Shown here: positions 22,128 to 43,896 of the stretch, piece after piece
How the letters are laid out: each line of letters begins with the position of its first letter
How positions within the stretch are numbered: position 1 is the stretch's first letter
From: Eggerthellaceae bacterium
GTDB taxonomy: Bacteria > Actinomycetota > Coriobacteriia > Coriobacteriales > Eggerthellaceae
Assembly: GCA_017459925.1 (NCBI GenBank)
Contig: JAFUCC010000012.1
Location: 1 to 57,398 of the forward strand
Direction: 5' to 3'
Length of the DNA: 57,398 nucleotides
Position numbers and translations under genes: made by a program
Notes under the pieces: model-generated
What the model was told of the DNA's origin: nothing
Seen by the model: the letters and a program-made list of their open reading frames with translations, nothing else
Database searches by the model: none

Positions 22128-22754
22128 TTGAGACTCTTTCGCGAAACATCGAACCGTCTTTCATCGCAAAGTGGCATTTCCATCCTGGTTGCCCTGTTCT
22201 TTGTGCTTGTTGCAGGAATGATCGCTGCGGTTGTTATCTCCTCGGCCGCTGTGAACGCCGAACGCGTTTCCCCTGAGCAGAAGAACGATCAGGCGTATTT
22301 AGCCGTCGTGTCCGCCTTGAACACCGCAGATGACCTCGTAAAAGCCAACGGTTCCATTTGCGATGTGCGAATAGAGGTATCGGGCGGCACCGTTACAACC
22401 ACTACAGCGGGTTCTGATGGTCTGGGTTTAGGTCAATGGGCGACTGTGCAAGTGGGTCGCATGGAGAACGGCGGAATAGCCGAGCCGAAGAACGTTGTGG
22501 TCAGCGCTTCTGACATGGGCAATGCGAATGTGCCCGACGTGCTGCTTACGTTCACTATGACAACCGATCGTTCGATATACGTACGGGCTTGTCAGGATGT
22601 ATGGGGTTCGTCTACGGTTCCGACCGATGAGACAACTTTGAAGGCGGACCTCGCGGAGCGGGGTTTGTTCGGGTACACGCTTAATAGGCAAGTTGCAAGC
22701 TCGGGCTCGTCTGGAACCACGGTTTTCTGGGATGCGGTAGAGGTAAACGTATGA
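22128..22754 (+). CDS. PilX/GspK-like minor prepilin lacking Glu5 (208 residues)
   Basis: The TTG start at 22128 is supported by AGAAGGTAG upstream. A polar leader ends SSQSG, followed by the helix ISILVALFFVLVAGMIAAVV, which has no glutamate at mature position 5. Minor pilins of the PilX/GspK type share this lack, and in related systems such subunits sit at the filament tip. The rest (about 170 residues) is an unrecognised extracellular domain with two or three cysteines. It overlaps the next prepilin gene by ATGA, so the products are probably made in fixed ratio. Its counterpart in the second cassette is the 273-residue protein at 36925. Confidence 0.82.
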   Translation: MRLFRETSNRLSSQSGISILVALFFVLVAGMIAAVVISSAAVNAERVSPEQKNDQAYLAVVSALNTADDLVKANGSICDVRIEVSGGTVTTTTAGSDGLGLGQWATVQVGRMENGGIAEPKNVVVSASDMGNANVPDVLLTFTMTTDRSIYVRACQDVWGSSTVPTDETTLKADLAERGLFGYTLNRQVASSGSSGTTVFWDAVEVNV

Positions 22755-23110
22755 TTGCGAGGGCTCTAAGAAAGGTGCGTTTCCAGAGCGGCGAAACGCT
22801 CGTCGAGACGCTTGCGTCGATGCTTATCGCAACGCTTGCCGTGGTAGTGCTCACGACATCGGTCACAACAGCCGCAAGCATGAATCACTCAGCGGCGAAA
22901 CAAAGCGAAGCGACTCAGGAACAGCTCCTGAAAGCGTCCCAGTTCAATGGCTACATCGCCGAAACGGGTGAAACGAGCAATGGCTCGGGCACGCTTGCTT
23001 TTACAGACAAAGATGATGCTACAAGGCAAGTGACGTATACGGGCAGCGCAGTAGCCGTATACGGAGGCCAAGATATCGTGTCGTACGATTTGCAGGCAGG
23101 GGGCGCGTAA
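22751..23110 (+). CDS. Small minor prepilin (119 residues)
   Basis: The signal FQSG-ETLVE has Glu at mature position 5, followed by the helix TLASMLIATLAVVVLTTSV. The remaining 75 residues form a short domain ending in VAVYGGQDIVSYDLQAGGA. The unusual Glu at mature position 1 instead of Phe is shared with the 119-residue paralogue at 37736 (RGESITE). This position resembles the small minor pilins of Gram-positive type IV pilus and Com pseudopilus operons. It is translationally coupled to the genes on both sides. Confidence 0.85.
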   Translation: MIARALRKVRFQSGETLVETLASMLIATLAVVVLTTSVTTAASMNHSAAKQSEATQEQLLKASQFNGYIAETGETSNGSGTLAFTDKDDATRQVTYTGSAVAVYGGQDIVSYDLQAGGA

Positions 23111-23113
23111 GGC

Positions 23114-24700
23114 ATGAGGCCTGTTGCAAGAAAACTACGCATGCAAGCTGGCTTCACGCTGGTTGAAATGCTAGCCGCGCTTCTCGTATTGTCTCTTATG
23201 ACTGGCCTGGTTGCATCTGGCGTTTCCGCTGGAACGCGCATGTATCAACAAGAGCGCTTCGAATCTCAGGCCCAGGTGCTTGCGGGTACGATTAACAGCA
23301 CATTGGCGGACCCTGTGCGTTTCATGCAAAAGACAGGATCAACCTGCACCATGTCATATGAGGGCAATTTGATTTCGTTTCCCGCGAACGGCACTCCCCT
23401 TCAAGTTGATGGCGATGGGCATTTGTACCTGCAGGGGTCCGAATCCGGATCTAATCAGGTGAAGCTATTGAATGCGGGCATCTATGACGCTTGCAAGGTC
23501 GAGAGCCTCGACTCTCAGCTAAAGAGCGAGCCAAACGCAGACGGAACTACCGCATACGTATTCGAAGGCTCATATACGATAGCTGGGCCAAATGGCTTCT
23601 CGAAAGACTTTACGTTTGCCATCGTGCCCCAGTTTGGAGTTTCCCGCGGTAATACCGCCTCTTCGGGATCGGGGGGTTCAGGCTCTGGCGGAGCGGGGAC
23701 GATTGTTGACAAGGCGCCTCTCGACGTGCAATTGTCGGCTGCCAGGTCAGAGTTGGCGGCTGGAACCGACAAGCCTGATTCCGCGAAATCAGCCCTGCAG
23801 ACTGCCATAGATGCAGCGCAGGCGGTTTACGAAAACACCAACGCCGCGCAAGACGATGTGAACAGCCAGGTGTTGGCTCTTATTGCCGCCCGTGCCGCTT
23901 TTGCCAATGCATCCAGCGCTTCGGTTAATTACGATAGCTTGGGAGTCCTCCTCGGTGAAGTTGGGCAGATCGATAGCCGCATGGGCGATGCTGCCACGGC
24001 CTTGCAAAGGGCTTATTCGGATGCAAGCGCGCTCTACGACAACAAAAGCGCAACGGGGCAAGAAGAAGTTGATGCCCAGTATGCGGCTTTGCAAAATGCG
24101 CTGAATACGTACAGGGGCGTAAGGTATACAGCCGATTTGGCCCAAGCCATTGAGAACGCCAATAGCGCCAAGCAAACCGAACGGGTCGATGCCAATGGCG
24201 TTACTACATGGCTCAATTCTGCGCTGTCGAACGCTCGAGCAGCGGTGAACAACCCCACGGGCTATCCGCAGTCTCAAATCGATACCTATACAGCGGATTT
24301 GCAAAACGCTACGGCTGCTTATAACGCCCTGGAAAAGAAATCTTCTGGCGGTGGTGGTGAAGTTGTGGCGCCGACCGCCGGACAGGCTGCTTCTCAAGCC
24401 GACCTCGATAAATCAACTTATGGTGCAAGTTGGGGCAGTGGTAGTTGGACGTGGAAGAACATGAACACGTTCGATAACCCTGCAGTCACGTTCCTCGCTT
24501 TGGAGAATAATGGGGGAACACAGGTGCGGCTTATCTACTACGACAATAAATATTGGAAGCCTATAGATTGGAACGGAAACGATACGAAAGACGTGTTCAA
24601 CGACTGGGCGTCTGACAAGTTCGTTATCAGTCACTTGGGGGATGGCAGTTACCATGTTCATGGGTGGTCTGAATCGTGCAAATGGATTGCAATCAGCTGA
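23114..24700 (+). CDS. Modular prepilin with three FIVAR-like bundles (528 residues)
   Basis: The signal MQAG-FTLVE (Glu5) and helix LAALLVLSLMTGLVASG begin the protein, and a pilin-like domain reaches about residue 178. A Gly/Ser linker (SSGSGGSGSGGAG) leads into three helical repeats at about 201-265, 272-335 and 338-412, typified by ALQTAIDAAQAVYEN and ALQNALNTYRG. These match FIVAR three-helix modules of Gram-positive cell-wall adhesins. After GGGG, a Trp- and Tyr-rich domain of about 105 residues (GSGSWTWKNMNTF, YYDNKYWKPIDWNG) ends the protein; I do not recognise it. It may be a binding domain held away from the pilus by the bundles. It is the last gene of the first cassette, 168 bases before the giant gene. 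Confidence 0.87.
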   Translation: MRPVARKLRMQAGFTLVEMLAALLVLSLMTGLVASGVSAGTRMYQQERFESQAQVLAGTINSTLADPVRFMQKTGSTCTMSYEGNLISFPANGTPLQVDGDGHLYLQGSESGSNQVKLLNAGIYDACKVESLDSQLKSEPNADGTTAYVFEGSYTIAGPNGFSKDFTFAIVPQFGVSRGNTASSGSGGSGSGGAGTIVDKAPLDVQLSAARSELAAGTDKPDSAKSALQTAIDAAQAVYENTNAAQDDVNSQVLALIAARAAFANASSASVNYDSLGVLLGEVGQIDSRMGDAATALQRAYSDASALYDNKSATGQEEVDAQYAALQNALNTYRGVRYTADLAQAIENANSAKQTERVDANGVTTWLNSALSNARAAVNNPTGYPQSQIDTYTADLQNATAAYNALEKKSSGGGGEVVAPTAGQAASQADLDKSTYGASWGSGSWTWKNMNTFDNPAVTFLALENNGGTQVRLIYYDNKYWKPIDWNGNDTKDVFNDWASDKFVISHLGDGSYHVHGWSESCKWIAIS

Positions 24701-24868: not shown

Positions 24869-27800
24869 ATGGGGAAACGAGTTACAAACGAGGGGTTCGC
24901 ACGTCGCGATAGCGGCTTTTCAGCTGCGTTCGCGTTCGTGCTTTCCATTGTGGCGGCAGTGGTTCTGTCGGCCAGCATCGCGTTGCTCGCCTGGGTGCCT
25001 TCCGGCGACGCCCTTACCGCGGAGAGCTCGGAAAGCGCCGCATCCACAGATGGTGTTTCCCCTGATGACAGCTCAAGCAGAGATCAGGCGGCGTCGAACT
25101 CTGGCGCTCCGAGCGTCGAAAAGCCGCCGTCTGCCCAGCCTCTTGCGGAAGACGTCGCCGCTTCTCCGGTAAAGGTCGTGTTGGAAAAGACCATAGTGAG
25201 TGATTCTGGCTATCACTACACGGTAAGCGTCGAGTACATGTCTGATGCGGGCATTCCCGAAGGCGCTGAACTCTCCGTTGCCTGGGTTATGCTGACGCCG
25301 GAAGGCTACGACCCGAATAAGCCCGAGTTCAAGGACCGTCCCACCGAGGAAGAAGCGTTCGTGAGCGCGGCGCAGCTTGCCGAGCGCGTTTCTGAACTGA
25401 CGAAGGTGCTGGACGTGCGCGAAGGCGACGAAGCTTTCTACACGGCGTTTTTGGACATTTCCCTGAATGTGGACGGCAACGTCGTGAAGCTGCCTGACGG
25501 TGTCAAGGTAAAGGTGACAGTGGAAACAGACGCTGTTGAGGCCGACCAAGCGAATCGTCTGCGCGCTTCGTTCTTCACCGAGAAGAAACCTGGCGCCGAG
25601 CATGCCGACCCGCTGGGTCTCGAAGACCGGTCTGGCGAGCCGGCGCAAGATAAGAAATACGAAAAGGGCGCGAAGGTCACGTTCGAAACCGACAAGCTTT
25701 CCGAGCTTGGCCTGATGGGCGTGATAACCGCTGAGGAGCTGGCTGCCGAGCAGGCCGAAGCCGAAGCTGCTACGGGTGCCGATAACAATGAATCGGTGGA
25801 ACACGAGCAGGATGTCGCCGAACCTTCGGACGAAACCGACGTGGAGACGACCGATGCTCCCGATAGCGGCGCCGCGCAAGAGACGCCCAAGCCGAGCCTG
25901 TCCACTTCCCTTGTTGCTGCAAGCAACGCGCCGCTCGCGCGCGTTGTGAACCAGTATTCGCTGCTCCAGGTTGCAGATGCGCTAGGCGAGGAAGCTGATT
26001 CGTATACCGTTACTTGGGTCGACGATGAGGGCGCAATGCTGAAGACGGACGTTGTGGCAGCGGGCGAAGCGCCGGCTGCGCCTAGCGTGCCCCCAACAAA
26101 AGCGCCCACGGCGCAGTACACGTACGCGTTCGCCGGTTGGTCGAACAGCTTAGACGGCAGGGTTTACCTCGACGAATTCCCGGAAGTAACCGAGGACGTT
26201 GTGTATGTGGCCACGTTCACATCGACGGTGAATACGTACATGGTCGTCTGGACGAACGACGACGGCACCGTGTTGGAAACCGATGAGGACGTCCCCTACG
26301 GCACCATGCCCGAATACAACGGCGCGGAGCCTTCAAAAGACGGTTACCGCTTCGGCCTTTGGGAGCCTGATGTAGCCCCAGTTGAGGGAGACGTCACTTA
26401 CAAGGCGGTCTTTACGCAATCGCCGGTGGAGTTCCTCGTCCGCGACCACAGCACGGGGGCGCCGCTTTCAGATGCGCACCTAACGCTAACCAACGACGCA
26501 GGCATTGTCGTTTGGGAGGCGACGACCACCGGTAGCGGCCTTGTGTGGGTCAAGCAAGTCGGCCAGGAGTCTGCAGGCGGCGATGGCGCGGAGTTCAAGC
26601 CGAACAGCACCTACACGCTGAAGCAGACGAGCGCCGACTCCGCGTACATTTGCCCTGCAGGGTCGTGGACGCTGAAGGTCGCAGAAGATGGCAAGACGTT
26701 CTCGCTTACGGTGAATGCCGACGTCTCCGACATGTCGACCTGGCGGGCGAGCGGTCCCTATGGCGCGCGCTTCTACCTTGACAACGTGGCGGCATCCACC
26801 GTCACATACAAGTACAACTACCCTGCGGGAATTACGCCCGAACCCGAAGACGAGAAGTCGTCTCTGCCGGAGCTTGCCTACGACTACCGCTACTTGGTAC
26901 AGCACGAAGACCCGGCAATCGACGGCTACACGTTCGTGGGATGGCAGGTTGATGGCACGTCGACCTATGCTCATGAAGGCGACACGATTTCGCTCGACAC
27001 GCTGAGCAGGGCAACGCACACGATGGTCGCACAGTGGCGCATCCCGCTTTCCGTGCAGGCGTACACCTATGCCAAAGGCGACCGCGATCACGCCATGCTT
27101 GAAGAGGGCAGCGAGGGCATCTATGCGATTCCCGTCGAACGGTCGCTGACGTTCGGCAGCCTTGCCAACATGGCAGAAGCGTACGGGCAGCAGAACACGG
27201 CAGTCCACGAGTTGGGCGCCAGCACCGACTACAGCTTCGCATTCGCCACGCTGCAGCCGGCATCGGGTGAGGCGTTCCGCGTTTACGCGATGCAATACGA
27301 TGCCGCCATCCATGCATGGCAGTACAAGGAATCCGAGGGCGCTGACTGGACGAACATCGACAAGGGCGCTCAGTTGAACCTGTACTACACGCAGGACCTT
27401 GTGGAAGTCAAGTGGGTGCAAGAGCTGGAAGACGGCTCGTTCACCGTGCTTGACGCCGCGCAATTCCCGGGCAAGTCGGTTGCCGTCAGCTATGACTGGG
27501 TGAGCACCGATGCGCTGGTCAGCTCCTCAGAGAGGCCTGTGGTGCAGGGCTCGAGCTACTACAGTTATCTGGGTTTCGGCGATGCCGATGCTGCGTCGTC
27601 GAGCGCTTTGTCCAAGTCGCAGCTACAGTCGTTCAGCCTGAAGAACTCGGAAGACGGCTTCCGATTCAGCGAGAGCGGGTCGGGCGACGGCGAGCCGGTG
27701 GCGGGCGATACCATTTTCGTGGTGTATTCCGAAACGCCGCCGGAAAGCAGCGTGCTTCTGGCCATCGAGAACCATTCGGAATGGCCGTACAAGGTAAGCA

Positions 27801-30800
27801 GCATCTTCGTGGGCGGTGAGCTTGCCGCCAACGATTGGCTGGCCAATGGCAACGCGGTGCTGGTGAACGACGATGGAACGCTGCAGGTGATGGCTGCGCA
27901 AGACACCGTTGCCGCAGATGCAACGTCTCATCTCGTGCTGCTTGGGGCTGGCGCCAAGGCGTTCGTAGTCGACGGCGGATTTATCGAAGAAGCCGCCGCG
28001 GGCACGATTGCCAGCGCCGCCGTGGCAAGCTCCACCCAGATCGTGCGCACCACGCTCGTGAAGACAAGCAATACCGAGAACGGCCTAGCTAACACCAAGA
28101 GCGTGACGAGGGGCGTTTTGGAGGAGGCTCCCGCCGAAGTCGTCGTGTCGTTCGATTCCGACCTCTCCGACCTTGCCGTGAGCAAGACGTGGAGCGACGA
28201 CTCGTACCCGTCGGGTTTCAAGGTCGACTTCGCCCTGTATGAGAATTCGAAAGCCTGCACGACTGACGCCGCGAATGCGAGGGGCGTATACACGATGCAG
28301 GGCGACGAGTGGGCCATCACGATTCCGAACCTGCCCACGCGACTTGCCTACAGCGTGTCGGAGACTGCCGTGCGCAACTCCGCTGGCAATGATATAACCG
28401 CAGACTTCCAGGCAACGTACACCGACGACGAAGAGCAGCGCGCCATTGCCGTCTACAACACGCGCACGAGCGACGTTTGCCAGGTGGGCGATAGGAAATT
28501 CCGCACCGTGAAGGAGGCGGTCGAGTACATCGAGGGCGCGGGCATGACGACTGCCACCATCGAGATGCTGTCCGACTACATCATGGCAGAAAGCGGCTCG
28601 GTTGAAATTCCGTCGGGTTACAGCATCACCCTGACCTCCGTCGACGTCGACAACCCCAACACCATCACCCGCGGTTTTGCGGGTGCCGCCGAGTTCTTCG
28701 CGGTACATGGCGGGCTGACCATCGAAAACGTGAAGCTGACCGGCCAGCTCGGCAAGGCCATCATGGCCAAGGACGGCAATGGCGGCTTGGTGCACGTGGC
28801 TGCGGGAGCGGTTCTCACGGCAGGCGATGGCGCCCAGCTCGCTTATGGTCGCGCCTCGAACGGCTCGGCGATCTACGCGGAAAGCGGGGCCACGGTGAAC
28901 TTGGATGGCGTGCGTGTGACGTCGTGCCAGGCCATCAGCGGCGGAGCCGTCGGCGTTGCGGACGACACGGTTCGCATTCGCGTTTCCGGCGACACGTACG
29001 TGCACGACAACCGTGACGGCGACAACCGCGATCAGTACAACCTCTTCCTCGACCAGGACAGCAACGAGGTCATTCAGGTTGTCGGCGAGGGCTTGGGCAG
29101 CAACGCGCTCGTAGGCGTGCGCGTTCCCAACGGCGATTCGGCTTCGACGCAATACAATGCGCATGGCGCCCCGGCCAAGCCGTTTGCCACGTATGCTGAA
29201 AGCGCAAAGAACGATAACCTGGCCAAGCTGACGAACGATCGCCTGAACAGCTCTTATAGCAATTACGGAAGCGCGAGCGAAATCCTGCCGAACACCGTGG
29301 TGTGGGGCGAGACGTTCAACTTCACGGTGAACGTGCAATGGCTCGATGACAAGTTCAACGAGGAAAGCCCTGTGCCAGATGGCGCCCAGGTAACGCTCAG
29401 GCTGAACAACGGCTACGTCACTCCCAGGGCGGATGGCGTCGTGCCCACCACCGTCGTTCTCGTTGGCTCTGACAGCATGACCTACACGTTCGAGGGCTTA
29501 GCGCGTTACGACGGCAGCGGCAATCCTTACAAGTACACGGTTTCTGAAACGTCGATTGCCCCAACTGAGTACCGACGGGTCATCTTCGCCGGCGACAAGG
29601 CCGTAAACGACAATCCGCTTACGTACAGCGCGGCAACCGGCAACGACCAGGTGGCCTTCGTTTCGAACTACTACCGCTATACCGAGCTGACGGTCGAAAA
29701 GAAAGCGGAGAACCTGCCCGCCGGCCAGACTATCTCGGCCTCGTTCTCGGTATACCGCGTGGCGAAAGACGGCATGGTCGATCAAAACGGCATCCGCTAT
29801 GGCGGCGTGGGTAGCGTAAGCGATTTGCCGCTAGCGCTGCGCAACACGGAGTTCACCACCGAAGGCGGTAATCGCTGGCACAAGGACCTGGGTGGAAGCC
29901 AAGTTAAGTTCCACAAGTTCTACGACATCGCGTTCCGAGAATTCGAGTACAACGCGACCAGTGGCATCGGCGCCCTTAAGGACGGAACCGATTGGCAACC
30001 GGGCGATGTCGTGCGCTTCAGCGAAACCGGCGATTGCTCCGTGCGCGGCGAGGACGAGGCTTGGCACGCGCTCGGCACGAGGGTGCCCGATTCGTACATC
30101 CAGTTCTCCCGGCAAGATGGCAGGGGCGGCGTGGAAAGCGCCGGCGGCACGAGCGCGGGCAAGGGTTGCACGATACGTAACGTCGTCAGCTCGGGTTCCG
30201 GCACGTACACCTTCACAAAGGAAAGCCACGACCTGTCATCTGATTATTACTACTACGTAGTTGAAACGCAGGTCAGCGAATCGGGCGGCATGGGCCGCGT
30301 CATTGGGGACTCCCATAAGCTCGTTGCGACGTACGATCCGCAGTACGAGTACGACCAGCTTGCGCAGAAGGTCACGGTGACCAATACGTACCGCAATTGG
30401 CTGAGCGTCGACAAGCGCTGGTCCGATGACGTCACGAACCCCGGAACGTGCGAGTTCGAGGTTTACCGAGTCCTCGGCGCGACTGGCAGCACCGCAGAAT
30501 ACCTCGATGACCCCGTCAAGTTCGAGCAGTTGGTGAAAGCCAACTTCGACCAATGGGTGCAAGACGGGAAGGTCGCGAAGCAAAACGAGCTGTCGTTCTC
30601 GCTGCCCGAAACCGACACCGATAGCTGGGTGCACGTGCTGGAAGACCTCGATGTGGAAGGCGGCGTGTACTTCGCGCGCGAGGTCCGTTCGGGCGGCATT
30701 GCCATCCTGAACCCCGATGTTTCCGACACCAAGACGAGCGTCGACGCCGTGTACAGCTACGACAAGAACGTCAATCAGATTACGGTGAAGAACCTGAGCG

Positions 30801-33800
30801 GCGTGCTGTGCAAGATCGACGACAGAAGCGGCGAACATCCCTTCCGCACGCTGAAAGACGCCCTCGCTTATGGTAGGACGCGCGAAAACGGCGAATCGAA
30901 TACCGAGTTCACCATTCAGATGCTGCGCGACTACTCCATTCCTTCGAGCGACATCATGCAAATCGCATCTGGTGAGCATATCACGCTGACCACGGCGTCC
31001 ACGGTTGCGACCGGGGCAAAGGTCTTCGTGTATTCCGGCGATGCCGGAAAGACCAAGGCCACCATCGAGCGCAAGGCTGGCAACACGTGGCCGTTCGTCA
31101 CCATGGCAGGCACGGCAGGCGCGAGCGAAGGCACGTCGTTCACGCTCGAGAACATCGAGCTCGATGGCGGCAGCACATCGGTAAACTTCAGAATCGGCAA
31201 CACCACGTATTACAACGGCGGTCTCATTTACGCCACCAACGCCACGGTCGTACTGCAAGAGGGCGGCATGGACAGCGGCGGTGATGGCACGGGCGTCGTT
31301 GTGCGCAACGGCAAGGCCAACAACGGCGGAGCGATATACGCCGTCAGCTCGAATGTGTCGGTAAGCGATGCCGCGTTCGAAAACTGCGTTTCCACCGACA
31401 CGAACGGCAGCGTCGATCGTGGCGGCGGCGCCATCTGGACAAGCGGCATTTCAACCATGGTCGAAAACAGCACGTTCGCCGCGTGCACTGCCGCGCGCGC
31501 GGGCGGAGCGGTTGCCAGCATGTATAAGAGCGCCGAAGGCGATGGCGGCGAAGAGACTGTCATTACCGGCTGCACGTTTACCGATTGTACGTCGAATTAC
31601 TATGGCGGTGCCGTTTACTCCCGCAACGCCACGCTGACAGTGGGCGGCGAAGACGCGTCTGACGCTTGCACGTTCACGCGATGCGAAGCGATGTATCGCG
31701 GTGGCGGCGTGCATCACGAAAACACGATGGGAACCACGGACGTTCGGAACTGCACGTTCGACGAGTGCAAGATGACTGCCGCAGTCGGCTCCAACACGAA
31801 TGCGAACGGCGGCGGCGGGTTGTGCACGGAGGCCAATGTTTTGAACCTGCGCGACTGCACGTTCACGAACGGCTACGCCTACGTGCGCGGAGGCGGCGCC
31901 ATTCACTTCAACCTTTCCGCCGAGGCATCTAACGTTTCCAACTGCACGTTCACCAACTGCACGACGCAGGTTTCCGGTGGCGGCGGACTGGAAGACGTTG
32001 CTCTAACCCAGACGATTTCCGACTGCACGTTCACTGACTGTGCGGCTCCCGGAAGCGCAGGCGGCGGAATCGACGTGGGCCATTTCAACTACGACAAGAA
32101 CGTTGTGGTGACGAACTGCGAGTTCACCCGCTGCGAAGCGGGCGGCGGCGATGGCGGCGGCGGCATCTGCACAGGCGGCGAGACGCTGACGGTCATCGGC
32201 TGCACGTTCGACGAGTGCAAGACCATCGCCACGTCGGGCACTATCAACGGCGGCGCTATTTCCATGAGCCCTGGTGGCGAGATGAACGAAGTTGACGTGT
32301 ACGGTTGCACGTTCACGAATTGCGCTGCGGCTTATGGTTATGGTGGCGCTATCTATTCGAAGGGCATCGTGCTGCGCGTCGGCGACCATCCGGAAACCGG
32401 AGCCCACACCACGTTCACTAACTGTTCAGCGCGCAATGACGGCGGCGCTATCGACCATTATTGGCGAGGCGCTGATGGTGCGTCGCTGTTCATGGAAAAC
32501 GTGACCTTCAGCAACTGCACATCCACTGCGGGCAGCGGCGGAGCCGTCTACGATGGCGGAAACAGCTCCGCCGATACCACGTTGGTTGTCGCGAACGTCT
32601 CCTTCGCCGATTGCTCGGCCCAGTCGGGGCATGGCGGCGCCGTTCGTTCCTCAGCCGCCGCCGTAACGGTCAGCGACTCCGATTTCAACAACTGCTCTGC
32701 CAGATATCATGGCGGTGCCTTGGGCCTCGACCTCTTCGACACGTATTACGAGGGGTCGTCGCTGAGGGTGACGGACAGCACGTTCTCCGATTGCAATGCG
32801 GGCATCAGGAACGAGGGCTACTACGGCGGCGCCATTTACACCGATACGGAGGCGTTTGAGCTTACCGGTAGGGAAGGGGTAATCACCTTCGACAACTGCA
32901 CGTCGTGGGGCGCGGGCGGCGCCATTTACCATAGCCGCGGCGATCGCGAGAGCGCTTCCGACACCTTCACCGACCTTGTTTTCGAGAACTGCGTTTCGAA
33001 GAGCGGCAGCGGCGGAAGCATTTACACGTGTGCGCCCTCCGTTGCGCTGACGCGCATCGCTTTCCAGGATGGCACGTGCATGTACAGCGGCGGCGCCATC
33101 AATCAGAATGTCGGCGCTAACTTCATGGACAAAGCGCAGATGAATGTCGTCGATTGCACATTCAAGCACCTGCATTGCGGAGTCGACACTACAAGCGGAA
33201 GCAACGTTCACGGTGGGGCCATTTTCACGAACACGAGGCTCCTCACCGTTACGGGGCAGCAGGAAGTCCTGACGTTCGAGGATTGCTTTGCACGCGGCAG
33301 CGGCGGCGCGATTTGCCATGATCGCAACAATAACGAAGCTGTCGAAACCGTCATCACCGATTGCAGCTTCAAGGAATGCGAGGCGACGAGGAACAGCGGC
33401 GGGGCCGTGTACTCCAATGCGCCTGTGGCCACGCTGACCAACTTGTCGTTCGAGGGCACGCGGTCGTATTGGTCGGGCGGCGCCGTGTACCGCTCGGTTG
33501 CAGATTCGTATATCGCGCAAAGCAATACGACGATCACCGGCTGCACATTCAAGGATTCCGAAGCAGGTTACGGCAACACCGAGAACAATACCGGTTCGCA
33601 TGGCGGCGCGATATACGACAGTACGCTGATCCTGAACGTTCAGGGCCAGGAAGGTGTTGTCACCTTCAACAACACCAAGGCGCGCGGCAGCGGCGGCGCC
33701 GTGTACCAGAGCCGTGGATCCGAGGATTCAGCTGCAACGTTCACGCAATGCAGCTTCGACACTTGCACGGCGAGCACTGCCAGCGGTGGTGCGATTGCGG

Positions 33801-36800
33801 CATGGGCCACCACGCTGACCGTGCGGGACGCGTCGTTCAGCCATGTGAGCACCAGGAATTACGGCGGCGCTATCTATCACGAGGTCAACGGTAGCAGCGA
33901 GACGCGCTTTGCCAATGGCGCGACGCGCTTGAGCCACATCGTCGTGAACGATGCCACGACGCAAAACGAGTCGGGTGGCGGCGTTTCCACGAGCGCGCGG
34001 ACGCTCGTCGTTGACGGCCAGGGCGGTGAGAGCTCGTTCACCGATTGCACTGCTAGGAAAGCTGGCGGCGCCATTCGGCACAACAATGCCAATGTTGCGG
34101 CAACGACCACCATTTCCGATTGCGACTTCACGCGCTGCGAAGGCGCGGCTGACGAGGGCGGCGGAGTCTGGACGCAGGCAACCAGGGCCGTTTTGTCCCG
34201 CTGCGATTTCGTTGACTGCACGGCGTATTCCAACGGCGGCGGCCTTTGCCATCGCATCACCAATAGCGATCAGGTTGCCACATGCTCCACCACCGTCGAG
34301 GGCTGCTCGTTCACGAACTGCGATTCCACCAACCAGTGGGGCGGCGGCATGCGGGCGGAAACCCTGACGCTCGATGTGACTTCTACGTCGTTCGACGGTT
34401 GCGACGCTCGTTGGGGCGGTGGCGGCATCTATCAGGCTCGAAATTCGGAGGGTTCGACCTTCACCTTGGACGGTTGCGGTTTTGCCAATTGCACCGTGTG
34501 GGATACGCAGGACAACTACGAGACCGGTGGCGGAGCCGTTAATGCGAAGGCGCGCGTGCTCGACTTCAAGGAAAGCGTGTTCGAGGATTGCTCGGCCAAG
34601 AACCGCGGTGGCATTATCATGCACGCCGACGTAAAGGCGGCTGCCGAAGCGACGATTGCCGATTGCCGACTTTCGGGCGGCGAGGTCAGCGAGGGCAATG
34701 GCCAAGGCGGCGGCATCTACTTCACCATGACTGATGCCACCCTCATCCGCACAACCATCGAGAACTGCTCGGCGTCGGCTCGGGGCGGCGCCATTTACAA
34801 GCATAATTCCTATAGCCTGCCACTCGTGCTTGACGATTGCGAGCTTACGGGCAATTACGCTGGTAATTACGGCGGAGCCGTGTTCTTCGACTCGAACAAC
34901 ACGATCACGCTGCGCAACGGCACGAGCATCACCGGCAACACGCTGGGAACCACCACGGTGGAAAACGCGGCAGGCGTGTACATCCTGCAAGACAGGGGCC
35001 AAGCCACGCTGGTCTTGGGTTCCGTAGACGCCGAGGATGACACGATCACCGTGTACGACAACACGACCAGCTCGGATATGCAGTCGAACGTGCGGCTCAT
35101 ACGGAGCGGTACGTATGACAAGAAGACGCAGCGCTACTACGATAGGGCCGACAGCGTCAGCCTGCTTTCCAACTTGACGAAACCGGGCGTTGGCGCGACG
35201 GGCAGCATCGGCGTGGTGAACCCGGGCCCGGAGAACACGCAGTTCGGCGTGGGCGACGTGGGCGGCCATACGGGCGTCGAGTACATCGTCTCCGACATCG
35301 ACACGCAATACGGCAAGCTTGACCCTGCCGATCACGAGCATAAGAAGATCATCTGGTATGCACCGCCCGTGTGCAAGATCACCGACCAGTACGGTTGGCC
35401 GTTGTACTACGGTCCCGAGAAGAAGACGGCGACGTTCACGTCGTTGAAGGACGCCATCGAGGTCCTGAACGTCTTGACGCCCGGCTACCTGCGCGACAAC
35501 GATGATGTGGAACCCACGCAGTTGCAGATCCAGATGCTGGTGCCCAATTACACCCTGGGCGAAGCGACGCCTGCCCTGAAGCGCGACGTCACGCTGACCA
35601 CGGCCAATCCTGGTCCTACGGAATTCGACTATCCCATGAACGCCACGTCGGCCACGGCTACGGTGATGCGCGGTGCTGCGGCGACCGCAGGCTCCCTGTT
35701 CACGGTGTCCCCGGGTGTGGGGCTTACTGTGAAAGCCATTACGCTCGATGGCGGCAACCGAAGCGAGTTGCCGCTGGTTGTGCCTGCGAACGGCGGCATC
35801 GTCAACGTGCAGACCAATGCGTCGGTCACGCTGTCCGAGGGCGCCGTGCTGTGCAATTCGGCCGTTTCTGACGGAAACAATGGCGGCGCCGTGTATGTCA
35901 CCGGCGGCACAAACCCCGACGTTCCCGCGCTCGTCATGGACGCAAACGCCACCGTCTCCGACTGCTTGGCCGGTAACGGCGCCGGTGTGTACCTGACCGG
36001 CGGCGTGCTGTTCGAAATGAACGACGCTCCCCATATCGAGGGGTGCACGGCGAGCAAGGCGGGCGGCGCCGTGTACGTCTCGCCGTATGCCACCATGTCG
36101 TTCGCCGACAATCCTAACGCCGTCATTCGCGATAACGCAGTCGCCGATGCTTCAGGCGCTGGTGCGGGCATTTACCTTCCCGACAACAACAGCAAGCTGA
36201 ACTTGAAGCTCGGTCGGGCTGCCGTCATCGCCGACAACTACGTGCTGGGCACCGATGACGATACGCGCCAAAACGGCTTCGAGAGCTACCCGCTGTTGCG
36301 CCAGGATATTTTCTTGGGTGAAAGCGGCGAGCCTGCGACCTCCATCGTGTTGACGGGCGACCTCTCGATGGATGCCGGGGACATTTGGGTGTGGGCCGAT
36401 AACGCGACGCACTATAAGACCGAAACGCAATTCGCCGTCATCGCAACCGATGCGAGCGGCAATCCCTCATTCACGCCTCGCGACAGTTCGTTGGCGCTGC
36501 TGCGCAACGCGCGCGACGACGTTGATTCCGAAAACGACACCGATTCGCATCTGTACGGCATTCAAGAAGACGGCGTGAACGTCATCTGGTCGTACAACAC
36601 GGGTTCGGCGAAAGTCGTGTTGCGCAAGGTTGCTTACGAGGACGGCAGCTACGATTCGCTTCAGGGGGCTGTGTTCACCGTGTACAAGGGCCGCAGCACC
36701 CGTCCTTACGTGGTGCGCCACGACGATGGCACGCAAGAGACGCTTTCTGGCCTGCAATCGGGCGATGCGGGCGTGTTCTGGATTGGCGTGCTGCCGTATG

Positions 36801-36928
36801 GCACGTATTACCTGGAAGAGACGACGACGCCAAGCGGCTTCGACGCCTCGCGGAAATGGTTCCGCCTCGATATAAATGAAAGCGGCGTGAGCATGTCGGC
36901 TGCTGCGACGAGCAGGGCTGCGTTATGA
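24869..36928 (+). CDS. Giant multidomain surface protein, candidate modular pilin (4019 residues)
   Basis: A single intact 12,060-base reading frame. Residues 1-16 are a basic leader ending RRDSG, followed by F17 and a hydrophobic helix to about 41 (AAFAFVLSIVAAVVLS), like a prepilin without Glu5; a plain signal anchor is the alternative. Then follow a Ser/Glu-rich region, InlB-like repeats near 379, 457 and 650-725 (YTVTWVDDEG, YMVVWTNDDG), and a Cna-B-like domain near 1090-1198. A first beta-helix module starts near 1202, and two or three Cna-B-like domains span about 1475-1980. A long Cys-rich beta-helix (about 1979-3490) has roughly 40 GGA-I/V-Y turns, and a third module begins near 3498. 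A SpaA-like domain (about 3912-4010, LPYGTYYLEETTTP) ends it. No LPXTG or C-terminal membrane segment is present. It overlaps the next prepilin by ATGA. An adhesive role is inferred. Confidence 0.9.
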   Translation: MGKRVTNEGFARRDSGFSAAFAFVLSIVAAVVLSASIALLAWVPSGDALTAESSESAASTDGVSPDDSSSRDQAASNSGAPSVEKPPSAQPLAEDVAASPVKVVLEKTIVSDSGYHYTVSVEYMSDAGIPEGAELSVAWVMLTPEGYDPNKPEFKDRPTEEEAFVSAAQLAERVSELTKVLDVREGDEAFYTAFLDISLNVDGNVVKLPDGVKVKVTVETDAVEADQANRLRASFFTEKKPGAEHADPLGLEDRSGEPAQDKKYEKGAKVTFETDKLSELGLMGVITAEELAAEQAEAEAATGADNNESVEHEQDVAEPSDETDVETTDAPDSGAAQETPKPSLSTSLVAASNAPLARVVNQYSLLQVADALGEEADSYTVTWVDDEGAMLKTDVVAAGEAPAAPSVPPTKAPTAQYTYAFAGWSNSLDGRVYLDEFPEVTEDVVYVATFTSTVNTYMVVWTNDDGTVLETDEDVPYGTMPEYNGAEPSKDGYRFGLWEPDVAPVEGDVTYKAVFTQSPVEFLVRDHSTGAPLSDAHLTLTNDAGIVVWEATTTGSGLVWVKQVGQESAGGDGAEFKPNSTYTLKQTSADSAYICPAGSWTLKVAEDGKTFSLTVNADVSDMSTWRASGPYGARFYLDNVAASTVTYKYNYPAGITPEPEDEKSSLPELAYDYRYLVQHEDPAIDGYTFVGWQVDGTSTYAHEGDTISLDTLSRATHTMVAQWRIPLSVQAYTYAKGDRDHAMLEEGSEGIYAIPVERSLTFGSLANMAEAYGQQNTAVHELGASTDYSFAFATLQPASGEAFRVYAMQYDAAIHAWQYKESEGADWTNIDKGAQLNLYYTQDLVEVKWVQELEDGSFTVLDAAQFPGKSVAVSYDWVSTDALVSSSERPVVQGSSYYSYLGFGDADAASSSALSKSQLQSFSLKNSEDGFRFSESGSGDGEPVAGDTIFVVYSETPPESSVLLAIENHSEWPYKVSSIFVGGELAANDWLANGNAVLVNDDGTLQVMAAQDTVAADATSHLVLLGAGAKAFVVDGGFIEEAAAGTIASAAVASSTQIVRTTLVKTSNTENGLANTKSVTRGVLEEAPAEVVVSFDSDLSDLAVSKTWSDDSYPSGFKVDFALYENSKACTTDAANARGVYTMQGDEWAITIPNLPTRLAYSVSETAVRNSAGNDITADFQATYTDDEEQRAIAVYNTRTSDVCQVGDRKFRTVKEAVEYIEGAGMTTATIEMLSDYIMAESGSVEIPSGYSITLTSVDVDNPNTITRGFAGAAEFFAVHGGLTIENVKLTGQLGKAIMAKDGNGGLVHVAAGAVLTAGDGAQLAYGRASNGSAIYAESGATVNLDGVRVTSCQAISGGAVGVADDTVRIRVSGDTYVHDNRDGDNRDQYNLFLDQDSNEVIQVVGEGLGSNALVGVRVPNGDSASTQYNAHGAPAKPFATYAESAKNDNLAKLTNDRLNSSYSNYGSASEILPNTVVWGETFNFTVNVQWLDDKFNEESPVPDGAQVTLRLNNGYVTPRADGVVPTTVVLVGSDSMTYTFEGLARYDGSGNPYKYTVSETSIAPTEYRRVIFAGDKAVNDNPLTYSAATGNDQVAFVSNYYRYTELTVEKKAENLPAGQTISASFSVYRVAKDGMVDQNGIRYGGVGSVSDLPLALRNTEFTTEGGNRWHKDLGGSQVKFHKFYDIAFREFEYNATSGIGALKDGTDWQPGDVVRFSETGDCSVRGEDEAWHALGTRVPDSYIQFSRQDGRGGVESAGGTSAGKGCTIRNVVSSGSGTYTFTKESHDLSSDYYYYVVETQVSESGGMGRVIGDSHKLVATYDPQYEYDQLAQKVTVTNTYRNWLSVDKRWSDDVTNPGTCEFEVYRVLGATGSTAEYLDDPVKFEQLVKANFDQWVQDGKVAKQNELSFSLPETDTDSWVHVLEDLDVEGGVYFAREVRSGGIAILNPDVSDTKTSVDAVYSYDKNVNQITVKNLSGVLCKIDDRSGEHPFRTLKDALAYGRTRENGESNTEFTIQMLRDYSIPSSDIMQIASGEHITLTTASTVATGAKVFVYSGDAGKTKATIERKAGNTWPFVTMAGTAGASEGTSFTLENIELDGGSTSVNFRIGNTTYYNGGLIYATNATVVLQEGGMDSGGDGTGVVVRNGKANNGGAIYAVSSNVSVSDAAFENCVSTDTNGSVDRGGGAIWTSGISTMVENSTFAACTAARAGGAVASMYKSAEGDGGEETVITGCTFTDCTSNYYGGAVYSRNATLTVGGEDASDACTFTRCEAMYRGGGVHHENTMGTTDVRNCTFDECKMTAAVGSNTNANGGGGLCTEANVLNLRDCTFTNGYAYVRGGGAIHFNLSAEASNVSNCTFTNCTTQVSGGGGLEDVALTQTISDCTFTDCAAPGSAGGGIDVGHFNYDKNVVVTNCEFTRCEAGGGDGGGGICTGGETLTVIGCTFDECKTIATSGTINGGAISMSPGGEMNEVDVYGCTFTNCAAAYGYGGAIYSKGIVLRVGDHPETGAHTTFTNCSARNDGGAIDHYWRGADGASLFMENVTFSNCTSTAGSGGAVYDGGNSSADTTLVVANVSFADCSAQSGHGGAVRSSAAAVTVSDSDFNNCSARYHGGALGLDLFDTYYEGSSLRVTDSTFSDCNAGIRNEGYYGGAIYTDTEAFELTGREGVITFDNCTSWGAGGAIYHSRGDRESASDTFTDLVFENCVSKSGSGGSIYTCAPSVALTRIAFQDGTCMYSGGAINQNVGANFMDKAQMNVVDCTFKHLHCGVDTTSGSNVHGGAIFTNTRLLTVTGQQEVLTFEDCFARGSGGAICHDRNNNEAVETVITDCSFKECEATRNSGGAVYSNAPVATLTNLSFEGTRSYWSGGAVYRSVADSYIAQSNTTITGCTFKDSEAGYGNTENNTGSHGGAIYDSTLILNVQGQEGVVTFNNTKARGSGGAVYQSRGSEDSAATFTQCSFDTCTASTASGGAIAAWATTLTVRDASFSHVSTRNYGGAIYHEVNGSSETRFANGATRLSHIVVNDATTQNESGGGVSTSARTLVVDGQGGESSFTDCTARKAGGAIRHNNANVAATTTISDCDFTRCEGAADEGGGVWTQATRAVLSRCDFVDCTAYSNGGGLCHRITNSDQVATCSTTVEGCSFTNCDSTNQWGGGMRAETLTLDVTSTSFDGCDARWGGGGIYQARNSEGSTFTLDGCGFANCTVWDTQDNYETGGGAVNAKARVLDFKESVFEDCSAKNRGGIIMHADVKAAAEATIADCRLSGGEVSEGNGQGGGIYFTMTDATLIRTTIENCSASARGGAIYKHNSYSLPLVLDDCELTGNYAGNYGGAVFFDSNNTITLRNGTSITGNTLGTTTVENAAGVYILQDRGQATLVLGSVDAEDDTITVYDNTTSSDMQSNVRLIRSGTYDKKTQRYYDRADSVSLLSNLTKPGVGATGSIGVVNPGPENTQFGVGDVGGHTGVEYIVSDIDTQYGKLDPADHEHKKIIWYAPPVCKITDQYGWPLYYGPEKKTATFTSLKDAIEVLNVLTPGYLRDNDDVEPTQLQIQMLVPNYTLGEATPALKRDVTLTTANPGPTEFDYPMNATSATATVMRGAAATAGSLFTVSPGVGLTVKAITLDGGNRSELPLVVPANGGIVNVQTNASVTLSEGAVLCNSAVSDGNNGGAVYVTGGTNPDVPALVMDANATVSDCLAGNGAGVYLTGGVLFEMNDAPHIEGCTASKAGGAVYVSPYATMSFADNPNAVIRDNAVADASGAGAGIYLPDNNSKLNLKLGRAAVIADNYVLGTDDDTRQNGFESYPLLRQDIFLGESGEPATSIVLTGDLSMDAGDIWVWADNATHYKTETQFAVIATDASGNPSFTPRDSSLALLRNARDDVDSENDTDSHLYGIQEDGVNVIWSYNTGSAKVVLRKVAYEDGSYDSLQGAVFTVYKGRSTRPYVVRHDDGTQETLSGLQSGDAGVFWIGVLPYGTYYLEETTTPSGFDASRKWFRLDINESGVSMSAAATSRAAL
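31200..34920 (+). repeat. Internal beta-helix repeat region of the giant gene
   Basis: The encoded protein repeats the pattern C-x-F-x-x-C followed after 5-10 residues by GG-A/G-I/V. Repeated codons produce many similar GGCGGCGCCATTTAC strings. Between about 32824 and 34000 a larger unit repeats every 372-391 bases (about 124-130 residues). Each unit starts GGAIYTDT, GGAIFTNT, GGAIYDST or GGGVSTSA and then has V-x-GQ-x-x-V-x-x-F-x-N/D-C. The region could change length by recombination. Confidence 0.8.
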
Positions 36929-37746
36929 GCGCTCGGATGAACAGTCAAGAGCGCCAAGAGCGGTCGACGCGCGGAGCATCGCTGCCGCTCGTCCTGCTGC
37001 TTTTCCTCGTTTGCGCCATGGCGTCCTCCATCGTCTTGGCTGCAGCTTCAGCTGCGGCGGGACGCACGGCGGGCCTTGCCGAATCAGACCAGCTCTACTA
37101 CAGCGCCTCTTCGGCGGCGCGGTTGTTCAGCGACGAGATCGCGGGGGATGATGGAAGCGGCCGCACGGTAACGGTGCTCCTTTCCCAGGAGCTCTCGGCA
37201 GATGGCTCAACCGCGGTTGGCGCGCCCACGCTTGCGCTGCTGCGCGACGGCACCACGCGCGTCGACCCTGAAGCCGGCTGCACGCTGTTGGAGCGGGCGA
37301 CGTTCTTCGCGCTGTTCGGTCGCGATTTCGAAACCGCTCAAGCCGCTCAGCAGTGGGTGGCTTCATCTGGCGTCTCGTGGGACGACTGGCTCGACACGTA
37401 TGAAAGCGCGTTTCCTGGCCAGGCTTTTGCCACGTTCACGTTGCAACATGACAACTCGCTCGACGCCAAAGCCCGCGCCGCGCTCGACTTGCAGGTGCGT
37501 GCAGAGGTCGACGCGGAGGGCAACCTGCTCTTCCGTTTCCTCGAGCCCGATGCGGACGCATCGAAAGACGATGGCGTTCTGCTGACGCTCACGTGTTCGG
37601 GTGATTATGATGCCCAGCGCATAGACGCACGCGCTGACGCCTCGAATAACGCACCTTCCAATGCCGCCATGTATGACGTGCAAACCATTATCGTCACATG
37701 GAAGCCGTCGGGCATCGAAGGGGGTGTGGGCTCTCATGCAGCTTAG
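36925..37746 (+). CDS. PilX/GspK-like minor prepilin lacking Glu5 (273 residues)
   Basis: A basic N-terminus ends RSTRG, then comes the helix ASLPLVLLLFLVCAMASSIV, which has no glutamate at mature position 5. This resembles PilX_N-type and GspK-type tip subunits and parallels the 208-residue protein at 22128. The remaining 230 residues are extracellular, acidic and unrecognised (GDDGSGRTVTVLLSQEL, DAKARAALDLQVRAEVD). The gene overlaps the giant gene by ATGA and the next prepilin gene by 11 bases, which ties its production directly to that of the giant protein. The two E5-less subunits could meet at the filament tip; this is inference. Confidence 0.83.
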   Translation: MSARMNSQERQERSTRGASLPLVLLLFLVCAMASSIVLAAASAAAGRTAGLAESDQLYYSASSAARLFSDEIAGDDGSGRTVTVLLSQELSADGSTAVGAPTLALLRDGTTRVDPEAGCTLLERATFFALFGRDFETAQAAQQWVASSGVSWDDWLDTYESAFPGQAFATFTLQHDNSLDAKARAALDLQVRAEVDAEGNLLFRFLEPDADASKDDGVLLTLTCSGDYDAQRIDARADASNNAPSNAAMYDVQTIIVTWKPSGIEGGVGSHAA

Positions 37747-38095
37747 CTCGAAACTGCGCTCCCAACGGGGTGAGAGCATTACCGAGGTGCTCGTGGCGAC
37801 TGCCATCGGCGGCTTGGCTCTGCTGATGCTTGCCATGGCGATATCGGTTGCCGTTCACATGGCCACGACGAGCCGCAGTTCCTTGGATGAGTACTATACA
37901 GCCAACAATGCGATCGCCGAAGCGAAGGCGACCTCTCTCGGCATCGGGGAAGTGGCCCTTGCGCCCCCGTCGGGCGACGAGATTTCGCTTGCGGGCGACG
38001 ATCTGCAGGTGCGCTACTACCGCTTCGATAGCGACAAAGCCGGGCTCGATTCCGTCATCGCCTACGAAGAGGATTCCGAAGCGGGTGGTGCCTGA
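37736..38095 (+). CDS. Small minor prepilin (119 residues), second cassette
   Basis: The ATG at 37736 (MQLSSKLRSQRGESITE) follows GAAGGGGGTGTGGG and overlaps the upstream gene by 11 bases. The cleavage motif SQRG-ESITE has Glu at mature position 5 and, as in the 119-residue paralogue at 22751, Glu rather than Phe at position 1. The helix is VLVATAIGGLALLMLAMAIS. About 75 further residues form a small domain (DDLQVRYYRFDSDKAGL). The equal length and shared signal support a duplicated cassette. The stop overlaps the next start (TGATG). Confidence 0.87.
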   Translation: MQLSSKLRSQRGESITEVLVATAIGGLALLMLAMAISVAVHMATTSRSSLDEYYTANNAIAEAKATSLGIGEVALAPPSGDEISLAGDDLQVRYYRFDSDKAGLDSVIAYEEDSEAGGA

Positions 38096-38679
38096 TGAAG
38101 GCGCGGAGGCAAGCCGGCTTCACGTTCGTCGAAACGCTCATGGCGTTGCTCATTTTCGTGCTGCTCACTGCCGTTGTGGCGGCGGGCATTCCCACGGCAT
38201 ATCGCACGTATATCGGCGTGGTGAACAGCTCGAACGCCCAGCTCGCCCTTTCCGCCACGACGTCTGCGCTGCGCGATGAGCTGGGCATGGCCCAGCAGGT
38301 GGCGCAGATAACGCGCAATGGCGAGACCGTCGTGTGCTTCGAGACGCCTGCCGGGTATTGGGAGAGTATCGGCAACGCCGCCGAGGAAGACGGGCATGCG
38401 GGCCTGATCGTGCAAGTGTATGCTCCCGGCGCAACCGGTCCCGGGGAGCCGCTGGGCGAGCCTCGTGAGCTCGTGCCCGATGCGTCGTTTGCCGCTGCGC
38501 GTGGTTACGAGGGGAAGATGCACCTGCTGATGGGCCCTGTCGTCTACGCTGACGGCGTCTTCACGGTAAACGACCTGAAGGTTCAAGTCGAAGGCGATAC
38601 GCTGCTAGAACTACCGAAATACGAAGTGCGGGCCGCGTTGGCTCCCGATAATGCCGCCAATGCGGCGGTTGGCTCCTAG
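38095..38679 (+). CDS. Minor prepilin (194 residues)
   Basis: A prepilin signal RQAG-FTFVE (Glu5) with the helix TLMALLIFVLLTAVVAAGIP. The remaining 150 residues resemble PilW/PilJ-type minor pilins in overall form (an N-terminal helix with ALSATTSALRDELGMAQQV), without added adhesive modules. It occupies the place that the FIVAR-bearing prepilin (23114) holds in the first cassette, and so may be the unadorned version of that subunit. The start overlaps the previous stop by one base. Confidence 0.87.
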   Translation: MKARRQAGFTFVETLMALLIFVLLTAVVAAGIPTAYRTYIGVVNSSNAQLALSATTSALRDELGMAQQVAQITRNGETVVCFETPAGYWESIGNAAEEDGHAGLIVQVYAPGATGPGEPLGEPRELVPDASFAAARGYEGKMHLLMGPVVYADGVFTVNDLKVQVEGDTLLELPKYEVRAALAPDNAANAAVGS

Positions 38680-42790: not shown

Positions 42791-42791
42791 C

Positions 42792-42818
42792 AATCAATTA
42801 CCTCGGAGGAAATTGATT
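42792..42818. repeat. PalA palindrome between pilB and pilT
   Basis: A perfect 27-bp palindrome around CCTCGGAGG (AATCAATTACCTCGGAGG, then AAATTGATT), directly after the pilB stop. It could form an intra-operon hairpin. It is identical to the copy at 50866 apart from the central bases. Confidence 0.88.
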
Positions 42819-42843
42819 ATCTCGACAGGACAAGAGGCTGAAC

Positions 42844-43896
42844 ATGGGATTGATGGACACTATCGTTTCGCAAGCTGAGGCCGCCCGTGCGTCAGACGTG
42901 CACATTGCGGCGGGCGTCCCCGTGCGCTTCCGCGTCGACGGAAAGTTGGTCAACCTGGGCGAGCATGTCTTGTCGCCCCAAGACTGCGAAGCAATTGCGC
43001 GTGACGCTGCCGGCGAGGCGTATGAGTCCATTGCCAAGATGGGCGAGCTCGATATGGCGGGAACGTATGCAGGGCATGTGCGCTGCCGCTTGAACATCTA
43101 CCAGTCAATGCGGTCGGTTTGCCTAGCCATCCGCCTGCTTTCCAACACGATTCCGAAGCTCGACACCTTGGGCCTTCCCAAGGTCGTTCAGGATTTTCCG
43201 AATTATCAGAAAGGCATCGTCATCGTCACGGGCGAGACCGGCTCTGGTAAGTCGACCACGCTCGCATCTATCTTGAACGAGATCAACCTCACGCAACCCG
43301 ACCACATCATCACGTTGGAAGACCCGGTCGAGTACGTGTACGAGCCGAAGATGTGCTCCATCGACCAGCGCGAGATCGGCCGAGACACCATATCGTATTC
43401 AGAAGGCTTGCGCGCCATACTGCGCGAGGATCCCGATGTCATCCTCATCGGCGAGATGCGCGACCTCGACACCATCGAGACGGCGCTCACCGCTGCCGAG
43501 ACCGGCCATCTCGTGTTCGGCACGCTGCATACGCAAAGCGCCGCCGATTCCATCGACCGTTTGGTCGACGTGTTCCCCGAGGGGCGTCAACGCCAGATTC
43601 GCCTGCAGCTTTCCATGGTCCTGAAGGCGGTGTTGTCTCAGCAGCTTCTGCCGAAAGCCAGCGGCAAAGGGCGCGTCGTGGCGTGCGAGGTCATGATCGT
43701 GAACCACGCCATCCGCAACCTCATTCGCGAGGGCAAGACTCCGCAAATCGAAAACACGCTGGCCACGACGGCCGAGCTGGGCTCCATCACCATGGACAAC
43801 ATGTTGGTGCAGATGGTACGTCAGCGTCTGATCACGCGCGAGACTGCGATCGAGGCGGCCCGTGACCGTGAAATGGTCAGTAAGAACGCACGATAG
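42844..43896 (+). CDS. pilT: Type IV pilus retraction ATPase PilT
   Basis: A 350-residue hexameric ATPase that drives pilus retraction and hence twitching or DNA uptake. Walker A GETGSGKST is near residue 130, the Walker B region DPDVILIGEMRD near 199-208 and the His box FGTLHTQSA near 222. The C-terminal motif AIRNLIREGK, characteristic of PilT rather than PilB, is present. The N-terminal PAS-like domain includes ASDVHIAAGVPVRFRVDG. Its presence implies a dynamic filament, not a static pseudopilus. It is separated from pilB only by a PalA palindrome and followed by pilC after 14 bases. Confidence 0.97.
   Translation: MGLMDTIVSQAEAARASDVHIAAGVPVRFRVDGKLVNLGEHVLSPQDCEAIARDAAGEAYESIAKMGELDMAGTYAGHVRCRLNIYQSMRSVCLAIRLLSNTIPKLDTLGLPKVVQDFPNYQKGIVIVTGETGSGKSTTLASILNEINLTQPDHIITLEDPVEYVYEPKMCSIDQREIGRDTISYSEGLRAILREDPDVILIGEMRDLDTIETALTAAETGHLVFGTLHTQSAADSIDRLVDVFPEGRQRQIRLQLSMVLKAVLSQQLLPKASGKGRVVACEVMIVNHAIRNLIREGKTPQIENTLATTAELGSITMDNMLVQMVRQRLITRETAIEAARDREMVSKNAR

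Follow-up and report, generated by a model that had tools for sequence, protein, structure and literature searches.

The stretch of DNA analysed (the window; 57,398 nucleotides of an Eggerthellaceae contig from a gut-type bacterium) carries, inside a type IV pilus (T4P) minor-pilin operon, a gene for a 4,019-residue adhesin-type protein, here called the giant. The giant itself is probably not a pilin, and we consider it reasonably probable that it is a Sec-exported adhesin held by a minor-pilin tip complex, PilY1-like in its working and without the PilY1 domain. A link of the giant to the pilus is strongly indicated by sequence comparison, because relatives encode a GLUG prepilin and the giant as one polypeptide. 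Fusion of neighbouring genes is strong evidence for physical association.

Gene and locus

The giant gene is an ORF of 4019 codons with an ATG start and a frame open throughout, and it heads the run giant-X2-V2-W2-GLUG2-PilB-PilT-PilC. Upstream lies GLUG1-X1-V1-W1 at 19720-24700, followed by a 168-base gap in which a sigma-70-type promoter was sought by consensus and none was found. Downstream, the cassette X2-V2-W2-GLUG2 occupies 36925-41072, and the giant and X2 genes overlap by ATGA at 36925-36928 (spacing -4 bases). The run is tight, with 11 bases from W2 to GLUG2 and 29 bases from GLUG2 to PilB. The preliminary description of an intact 12-kb gene with an ATGA overlap between two prepilin cassettes was thus borne out, the ORF being uninterrupted and the cassettes complete on both sides. 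A sequencing artefact was ruled out, since a colinear homologue exists in another genus. The minor-pilin sets flanking the giant have four genes each, including one E5-less member each, as in PilY1/PilC clusters; these members, X1 and X2, are the two E5-less prepilins of the window. The features were as follows.

19720..22119, plus strand: GLUG1, large prepilin, 799 aa
22128..22754, plus strand: X1, E5-less prepilin, GspK-like (NF037980, 1.5e-5; X-pilin profile, 61 bits)
22751..23110, plus strand: V1, minor prepilin (weak N_methyl match)
23114..24700, plus strand: W1, modular prepilin of 528 aa, ending in a 110-residue domain with which several relatives' giants also end
24869..36928, plus strand: giant adhesin gene, 4019 aa (ORF; colinear 3970-aa homologue in G099)
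36925..37746, plus strand: X2, E5-less prepilin in PilX/GspK position (X-pilin profile, 63.4 bits)
37661..38095, plus strand: V2, minor prepilin (GESITE)
38095..38679, plus strand: W2, minor prepilin (GFTFVE; PF07963, 22.5 bits)
38691..41072, plus strand: GLUG2, large prepilin of 793 aa, whose counterparts in G235, G225, and G237 are fused to the giant
41102..49232, plus strand: T4P machinery, namely PilB, PilT, PilC, a small GFTLMEM prepilin, PilD, PilM, PilN, and PilO (translations)
45384-45842, plus strand: the small GFTLMEM prepilin between PilC and PilD, probable major pilin

With the listed start, V2 would overlap X2 by 86 bases, and its translation probably begins further downstream. 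Machinery names other than PilB were assigned from reading the sequence, and PilB orthologues were found in 30 of 138 genomes. A 316-aa GFTLLEM prepilin is divergently transcribed at 18526-19476 (minus strand).

Domain composition of the giant

The Pfam scan of the giant returned SpaA, Cna_B, Flg_new, and bMG3 only; the PilY1 C-terminal beta-propeller (IPR008707) was absent from it. The parts of the protein are listed below.

24869..25012, plus strand: N-terminal signal, residues 1-48, with a basic n-region, a hydrophobic run at 17-43, and the c-region WVPSGDA (sequence; SPase-I-type signals in G099, G004, G058, G233, and G228)
25013..25144, plus strand: Ser/Ala/Asp/Glu-rich low-complexity linker, residues 49-92 (unstructured in a low-confidence model)
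25145..25780, plus strand: N-terminal beta domain (NTD), residues 93-304 (strands modelled at 102-220, pLDDT about 70-90)
26876..26983, plus strand: Listeria-Bacteroides (InlB B-type) repeat, residues 670-705 (PF09479, 3.7e-6)
29324..29584, plus strand: Cna_B, residues 1486-1572 (PF05738, 1.2e-11)
31466..35068, plus strand: Cys-rich GGA/FxxC repeat region, about residues 2200-3400 (repeat counts)
36617..36892, plus strand: C-terminal SpaA, residues 3917-4008 (PF17802, 9.9e-17)

The InlB-like, Cna-B-like, and SpaA-like domains of the preliminary description were therefore recovered by Pfam. Its beta-helix derives from the repeats and from a weak match of an AIDA-type profile to the region; the GGA/FxxC repeats probably form a right-handed beta-helix. 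The NTD is common to the giants of T4P loci, where it stands directly after the signal and linker or, in the fusions described below, after the GLUG pilin. A fold search with the NTD model gave no significant PDB match, and the PDB held no match by sequence either.

Cna_B and SpaA domains also occur together in LPXTG wall-anchored adhesins. The giant ends in SpaA followed by SAAATSRAAL, and no LPXTG, hydrophobic stretch, or charged tail was found there; an LPXTG anchor was found in 0 of 12 giants inspected. Sortase and anchor profiles identified a sortase and LPXTG proteins elsewhere in the genome, and LPXTG-like DNA patterns across the whole genome were no more numerous than in a reversed control and hence uninformative. 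The missing LPXTG in a genome that has sortase was counted in favour of a giant that is pilus-held and not wall-linked.

Homologues with separate giants

Giant-type genes adjoin minor-pilin cassettes repeatedly, in three families of the order, and the homologues in T4P cassettes mostly have SPase-I or lipoprotein signals. A question raised beforehand was whether homologues always sit next to E5-less prepilins; they were mostly found directly behind a GLUG prepilin, the giant of G233 (3385 aa) lying 6.5 kb after its GLUG prepilin. The window giant differs in position, as it precedes X2, whereas elsewhere the giants come after GLUG. The homologue in G099, which belongs to a different genus of the window's family, has 3970 aa and is colinear over residues 105-3188 at 31% identity (1205 bits). 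It lies directly behind a GLUG prepilin ending HYGDWPTVETLVVNVRG, like the window GLUG2, and its C-terminus is SpaA without LPXTG, as in the window. Its start, MLNRKNPTLRRGQLRKHRMRKHELGRKSISVLLVLVLATMNYSTSFA/APLG (signal ..LVLATMNYSTSFA/APLG; slash, cleavage site), is a textbook SPase-I signal. The giants of G004 and G058 agree with that of G099 in position and signal type, and the giant of G007 (2118 aa, same place) starts SKG/AVATETLATVALVAAL (SKG/AVATE) with Glu at +5, an ambiguous signal.

A different family of the order has giants behind the X-V-W-GLUG cassette in G222, G224, G228, G230, G234, and G236. They reach 5844 aa in G222 and 6194 aa in G228, and those of G224 and G236 exceed 5,800 aa, a lower bound as only part of their length was covered, as was also the case in G230 and G234. 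A conserved LYGC lipobox starts the giants of G222, G224, G230, G234, and G236, and G228 has an SPase-I signal. The T4P-cassette giants at loci L118-L127 (G224, G236, G222, G230, and G234) reach about 6,000 aa and are apparent lipoproteins.

The G004 giant (L032:319-6249, minus strand) ends in 28 residues matching the elongation factor G tail, and a related giant in G165 (L089) starts just past fusA, which is either an insertion at the fusA 3' end or a chimeric contig. The C-terminus of the G004 giant was excluded from use. The gene behind it, considered as PilB, was rejected as such, being LutC-like.

Giants fused to prepilins

The GLUG prepilin and the giant form a single frame of 4609 aa in G235 and of 4252 aa in both G225 and G237, and a second giant of G235 has an E5-less X-type prepilin N-terminus. 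The frames are located as follows.

L113:13321-20000 into L114:1-7150: G235 fused prepilin, 4609 aa
L116/L117: G225 fused prepilin, 4252 aa
L128:6028-18786, minus strand: G237 fused prepilin, 4252 aa
L114:18835-20000 into L115:1-9949: G235 second giant, 3704 aa

The signals of the fused prepilins (GFTLTEM/GFTMMEM) are of textbook type, and the N-terminal part of the G235 fused frame matched Pfam N_methyl at 28.4 bits, above the cut-off. The window GLUG2 and giant were concatenated in silico and aligned to the relatives' fusions; the alignment ran from pilin residue 7 across the joint to giant residue 286 (417 bits with G235, 453 bits with G225), with further aligned blocks within the repeats beyond residue 286. 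At the joint in the relatives, the last motif of the pilin is retained (HYGDWPSSETNTLNVRG in G235), the stop codon and signal peptide are gone, and a Ser/Thr-rich linker leads to the NTD. The fused prepilins of 4609 and 4252 aa may exceed in size all other known type IV pilins.

With the X-pilin profile, the second giant of G235 scored 34.4 bits, towards the low end of the X pilins' own 31-121 bits; a short linker leads from its prepilin helix to the same NTD, and the second half of alpha-1 is missing. It shows that the arrangement put forward for the window giant in the preliminary description exists, in a different genome.

W-type pilins, including W1, and the relatives' giants have in common a 110-aa C-terminal domain (YYxGxYYxP..LTDG..W). 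The W1 copy gave a confident model (pLDDT 85), for which a fold search returned no PDB match. Copies were located at the following positions.

Window 24368-24697
L047:9356-9685, minus strand
L114:6821-7147
L115:9620-9946
L050:6981-7355, minus strand

Export signal and alternative readings

The N-terminus, MGKRVTNEGFARRDSG-FSAAFAFVLSIVAAVVLSASIALLAWVPSGDALTAES, is as previously described, a basic leader with RRDSG followed by Phe and a long hydrophobic helix. An uncharged run of 26 residues ends in WVPSGDA, about 27 residues after Gly16. WVPSGDA fits an SPase-I c-region by eye, with Pro at -5 and a possible cut after A48 (PSGDA/L), and SPase-I-type export of the giant is likely. For a Sec signal, a 26-residue hydrophobic core is long, which leaves room for an uncleaved anchor.

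It had been proposed that PilD cuts the giant after Gly16 and that it is a huge pilin without E5, probably located at the tip. The leader, the F after it, and the long helix free of charges make up a class III-like pattern of leader, Gly, and hydrophobic stretch; S at +2 and A at +6 are reminiscent of the X-type motif, the 3704-aa giant of G235 joins an X-type N-terminus to the same NTD, and the G007 giant has Glu at +5. However, a Gly ahead of the hydrophobic core also occurs in 14 of 69 ordinary signals (further N-termini of non-pilins that have a basic stretch and hydrophobic core; cases were counted where a hydrophobic or small residue comes after the Gly), a rough rate as the set was drawn from mechanical ORF calls that include some false ORFs, and RRDSG-F is therefore weak evidence. 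On a profile made with 20 of the family's X pilins, the window's own excluded, the giant scored 5.1 bits (bias 7.4), no higher than unrelated membrane proteins, against 61-63 for X1 and X2. The giant has F at +1 and Phe at +5 in place of Glu5, and an exception of the GspK/PilX type was not backed by the X profile. The N_methyl profile, which matched five other window prepilins at E < 0.01 and V1 weakly, did not match the giant, nor did the GspK profile, which matched X1. A comparison of the N-terminal structure with PilX/GspK-type pilins had also been suggested; the model of residues 1-330 (mean pLDDT 56) does not by itself settle signal peptide versus pilin helix, and its helix spans residues 19-37 only, at low confidence, short of the roughly 50 residues of a pilin alpha-1. 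The helix stops at WVPSGD, and a linker and a different beta domain stand where a pilin module (helix and beta-sheet head) was sought and not found; none of the pilin families searched matched the giant. The closest full-length homologue, in G099, has an SPase-I signal, and the window c-region LLAWVPSGDALTAESS resembles that of G233 (..VWYGDRDALA/SESS). Cleavage after Gly16 is thus probably wrong, and a class III (prepilin-type) signal, and with it a PilD-processed giant pilin, is unlikely. A TadE/TadG-type giant pilin was rejected, as no profile matched.

That the giant is a cell-surface adhesin sharing only locus or regulation with the pilus, and held in the membrane by an uncleaved signal anchor, is suggested by the long hydrophobic core, by the lipobox in five relatives, by domain types like those of ordinary wall-anchored giants, and by weaker NTD matches in LPXTG giants. 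This is a quite unlikely reading given the GLUG-prepilin fusion in three genomes, the X-type prepilin N-terminus on a fourth protein, the recurrence of such giants beside minor-pilin cassettes in three families, and the ATGA overlap with X2. The same fusions point to lasting display and not release, and the size and modular build are of adhesin type, which makes very improbable a substrate exported or released by the pilus in a TcpF-like or type II secretion-like way, in spite of the lack of an anchor, the adjoining E5-less GspK-like tip pilin, and the docking of secreted proteins by minor pilins of other systems (PMC12075869). The idea of a giant pilin-linked adhesin accordingly held for the pilus linkage (fusions and GLUG adjacency) and for the size, and was not supported for the giant being itself a prepilin.

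Proposed mechanism

For the preferred reading, a Sec-exported adhesin held by minor pilins, we infer the cleavage site, the capture by minor pilins, the tip position, and the adhesion. The ribosome-bound precursor would be exported via Sec, and signal peptidase I would probably cleave it after Ala48. The exported giant, having no wall anchor, would be captured, probably by its NTD, by a tip complex of minor pilins of the same operon (X2, which is E5-less, V2, W2, and GLUG2), and the pilus would push the giant out and pull it in again. A long arm binding surfaces or partners would consist of the Cna-B, InlB-repeat, beta-helix, and SpaA modules. In relatives, the same modules are carried covalently, on a GLUG prepilin or on an X-type prepilin N-terminus. 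Holding by minor pilins is proposed because of the fusions, the adjacent E5-less X pilin, and the domain trade between W1 and giants. The gene order here, FimU/X/V/W-like minor pilins with a non-pilin giant, is that of PilY1 clusters, and the E5-less X pilin of other systems is the tip subunit contacting PilY1 (PMC7541494).

Counted against this reading were the position of the giant before X2 and not after GLUG2, and a signal unlike those of the homologues, whose 26-residue core directly after Gly16 would also suit an anchor or a PilD substrate. Its main difficulty is the lipoprotein signal of five relatives, which suggests membrane retention and fits the tip model less well.

Comparison with known systems

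The window giant is filed neither as PilY1, the domain being absent, nor as a modular pilin, the pilin tests having failed. Like PilY1/PilC, the tip adhesins of diderm type IVa pili, it is encoded with four minor pilins including an E5-less one; unlike them, it lacks the beta-propeller, belongs to a monoderm host, and is much longer, and its relatives are pilin-fused or, in some cases, have lipoprotein signals. To our knowledge, cases of adhesin carriage by monoderm T4P without PilY1 are few, chiefly the modular pilins of Streptococcus sanguinis. PilB and PilC of that species place adhesive modules on monoderm T4P, as do the fused relatives; the window giant is without a pilin module, whereas the proteins of G235, G225, G237, and G008 are modular pilins. 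Modular pilins were correctly said beforehand to be far smaller: S. sanguinis PilB has 454 residues, and the most extreme architecture in a 2021 survey has 860 residues with 12 repeat copies (PMC8179133), against 4609 in the relatives, whose fused forms would, as judged from their reading frames, be the largest modular pilins found described. The giant resembles the Cna-B/SpaA LPXTG giant adhesins of Coriobacteriia and Firmicutes in domain types, size, and NTD family (weaker matches), but it has no LPXTG/sortase anchor and lies inside a T4P minor-pilin operon. TcpF is released via the toxin-coregulated pilus. In the TcpB-TcpF pair, a tip minor pilin has a Sec-type protein docked to it (PMC12075869), as is proposed here; the window giant differs in being of adhesin type.

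No paper on T4P giants of Coriobacteriia was found among those searched, which does not prove that none exists. We give roughly even weight to the proposal that these proteins are an undescribed Coriobacteriia class of T4P-displayed mega-adhesins (2,000 to > 6,000 aa) with interchangeable N-termini (SPase-I signal, lipobox, GLUG-prepilin fusion, or E5-less prepilin helix), including the largest type IV pilins known and forming a monoderm counterpart of PilY1. Across the order, this giant adhesin occurs exported on its own, as an apparent lipoprotein, or within a pilin, and these three forms allow one to ask whether display at the tip is equivalent with and without a covalent link. Should the fused forms be assembled, the pilus machine can handle a 4,600-residue subunit, far beyond described modular pilins.

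Long pilins and Sec-type proteins in a related cassette

A cassette of the order bigpilin-X-V-W-PilB was found in about 20 genomes of the family. Modular prepilins heading it, of which that of G008 has a PF07963-type signal, and Sec-type proteins of 2,300 aa located between the first pilin and X were as follows.

L050:9044-17506, minus strand: G008 modular prepilin, 2820 aa
L051:400-9075: G121 modular prepilin, about 2890 aa
L052:10095-16772: G137 modular prepilin, 2225 aa
L055:5750-12688, minus strand: G017 Sec-type protein, 2,300 aa
L056:4510-11415, minus strand: G116 Sec-type protein, 2,300 aa

The same spot holds one long pilin in sister genera, a single pilin of 1150-2890 aa in most relatives of the family, and the two Sec-type proteins have slight sequence similarity to those pilins. 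A Sec-type protein beside pilins in these two genomes was counted as support for giants held by minor pilins.
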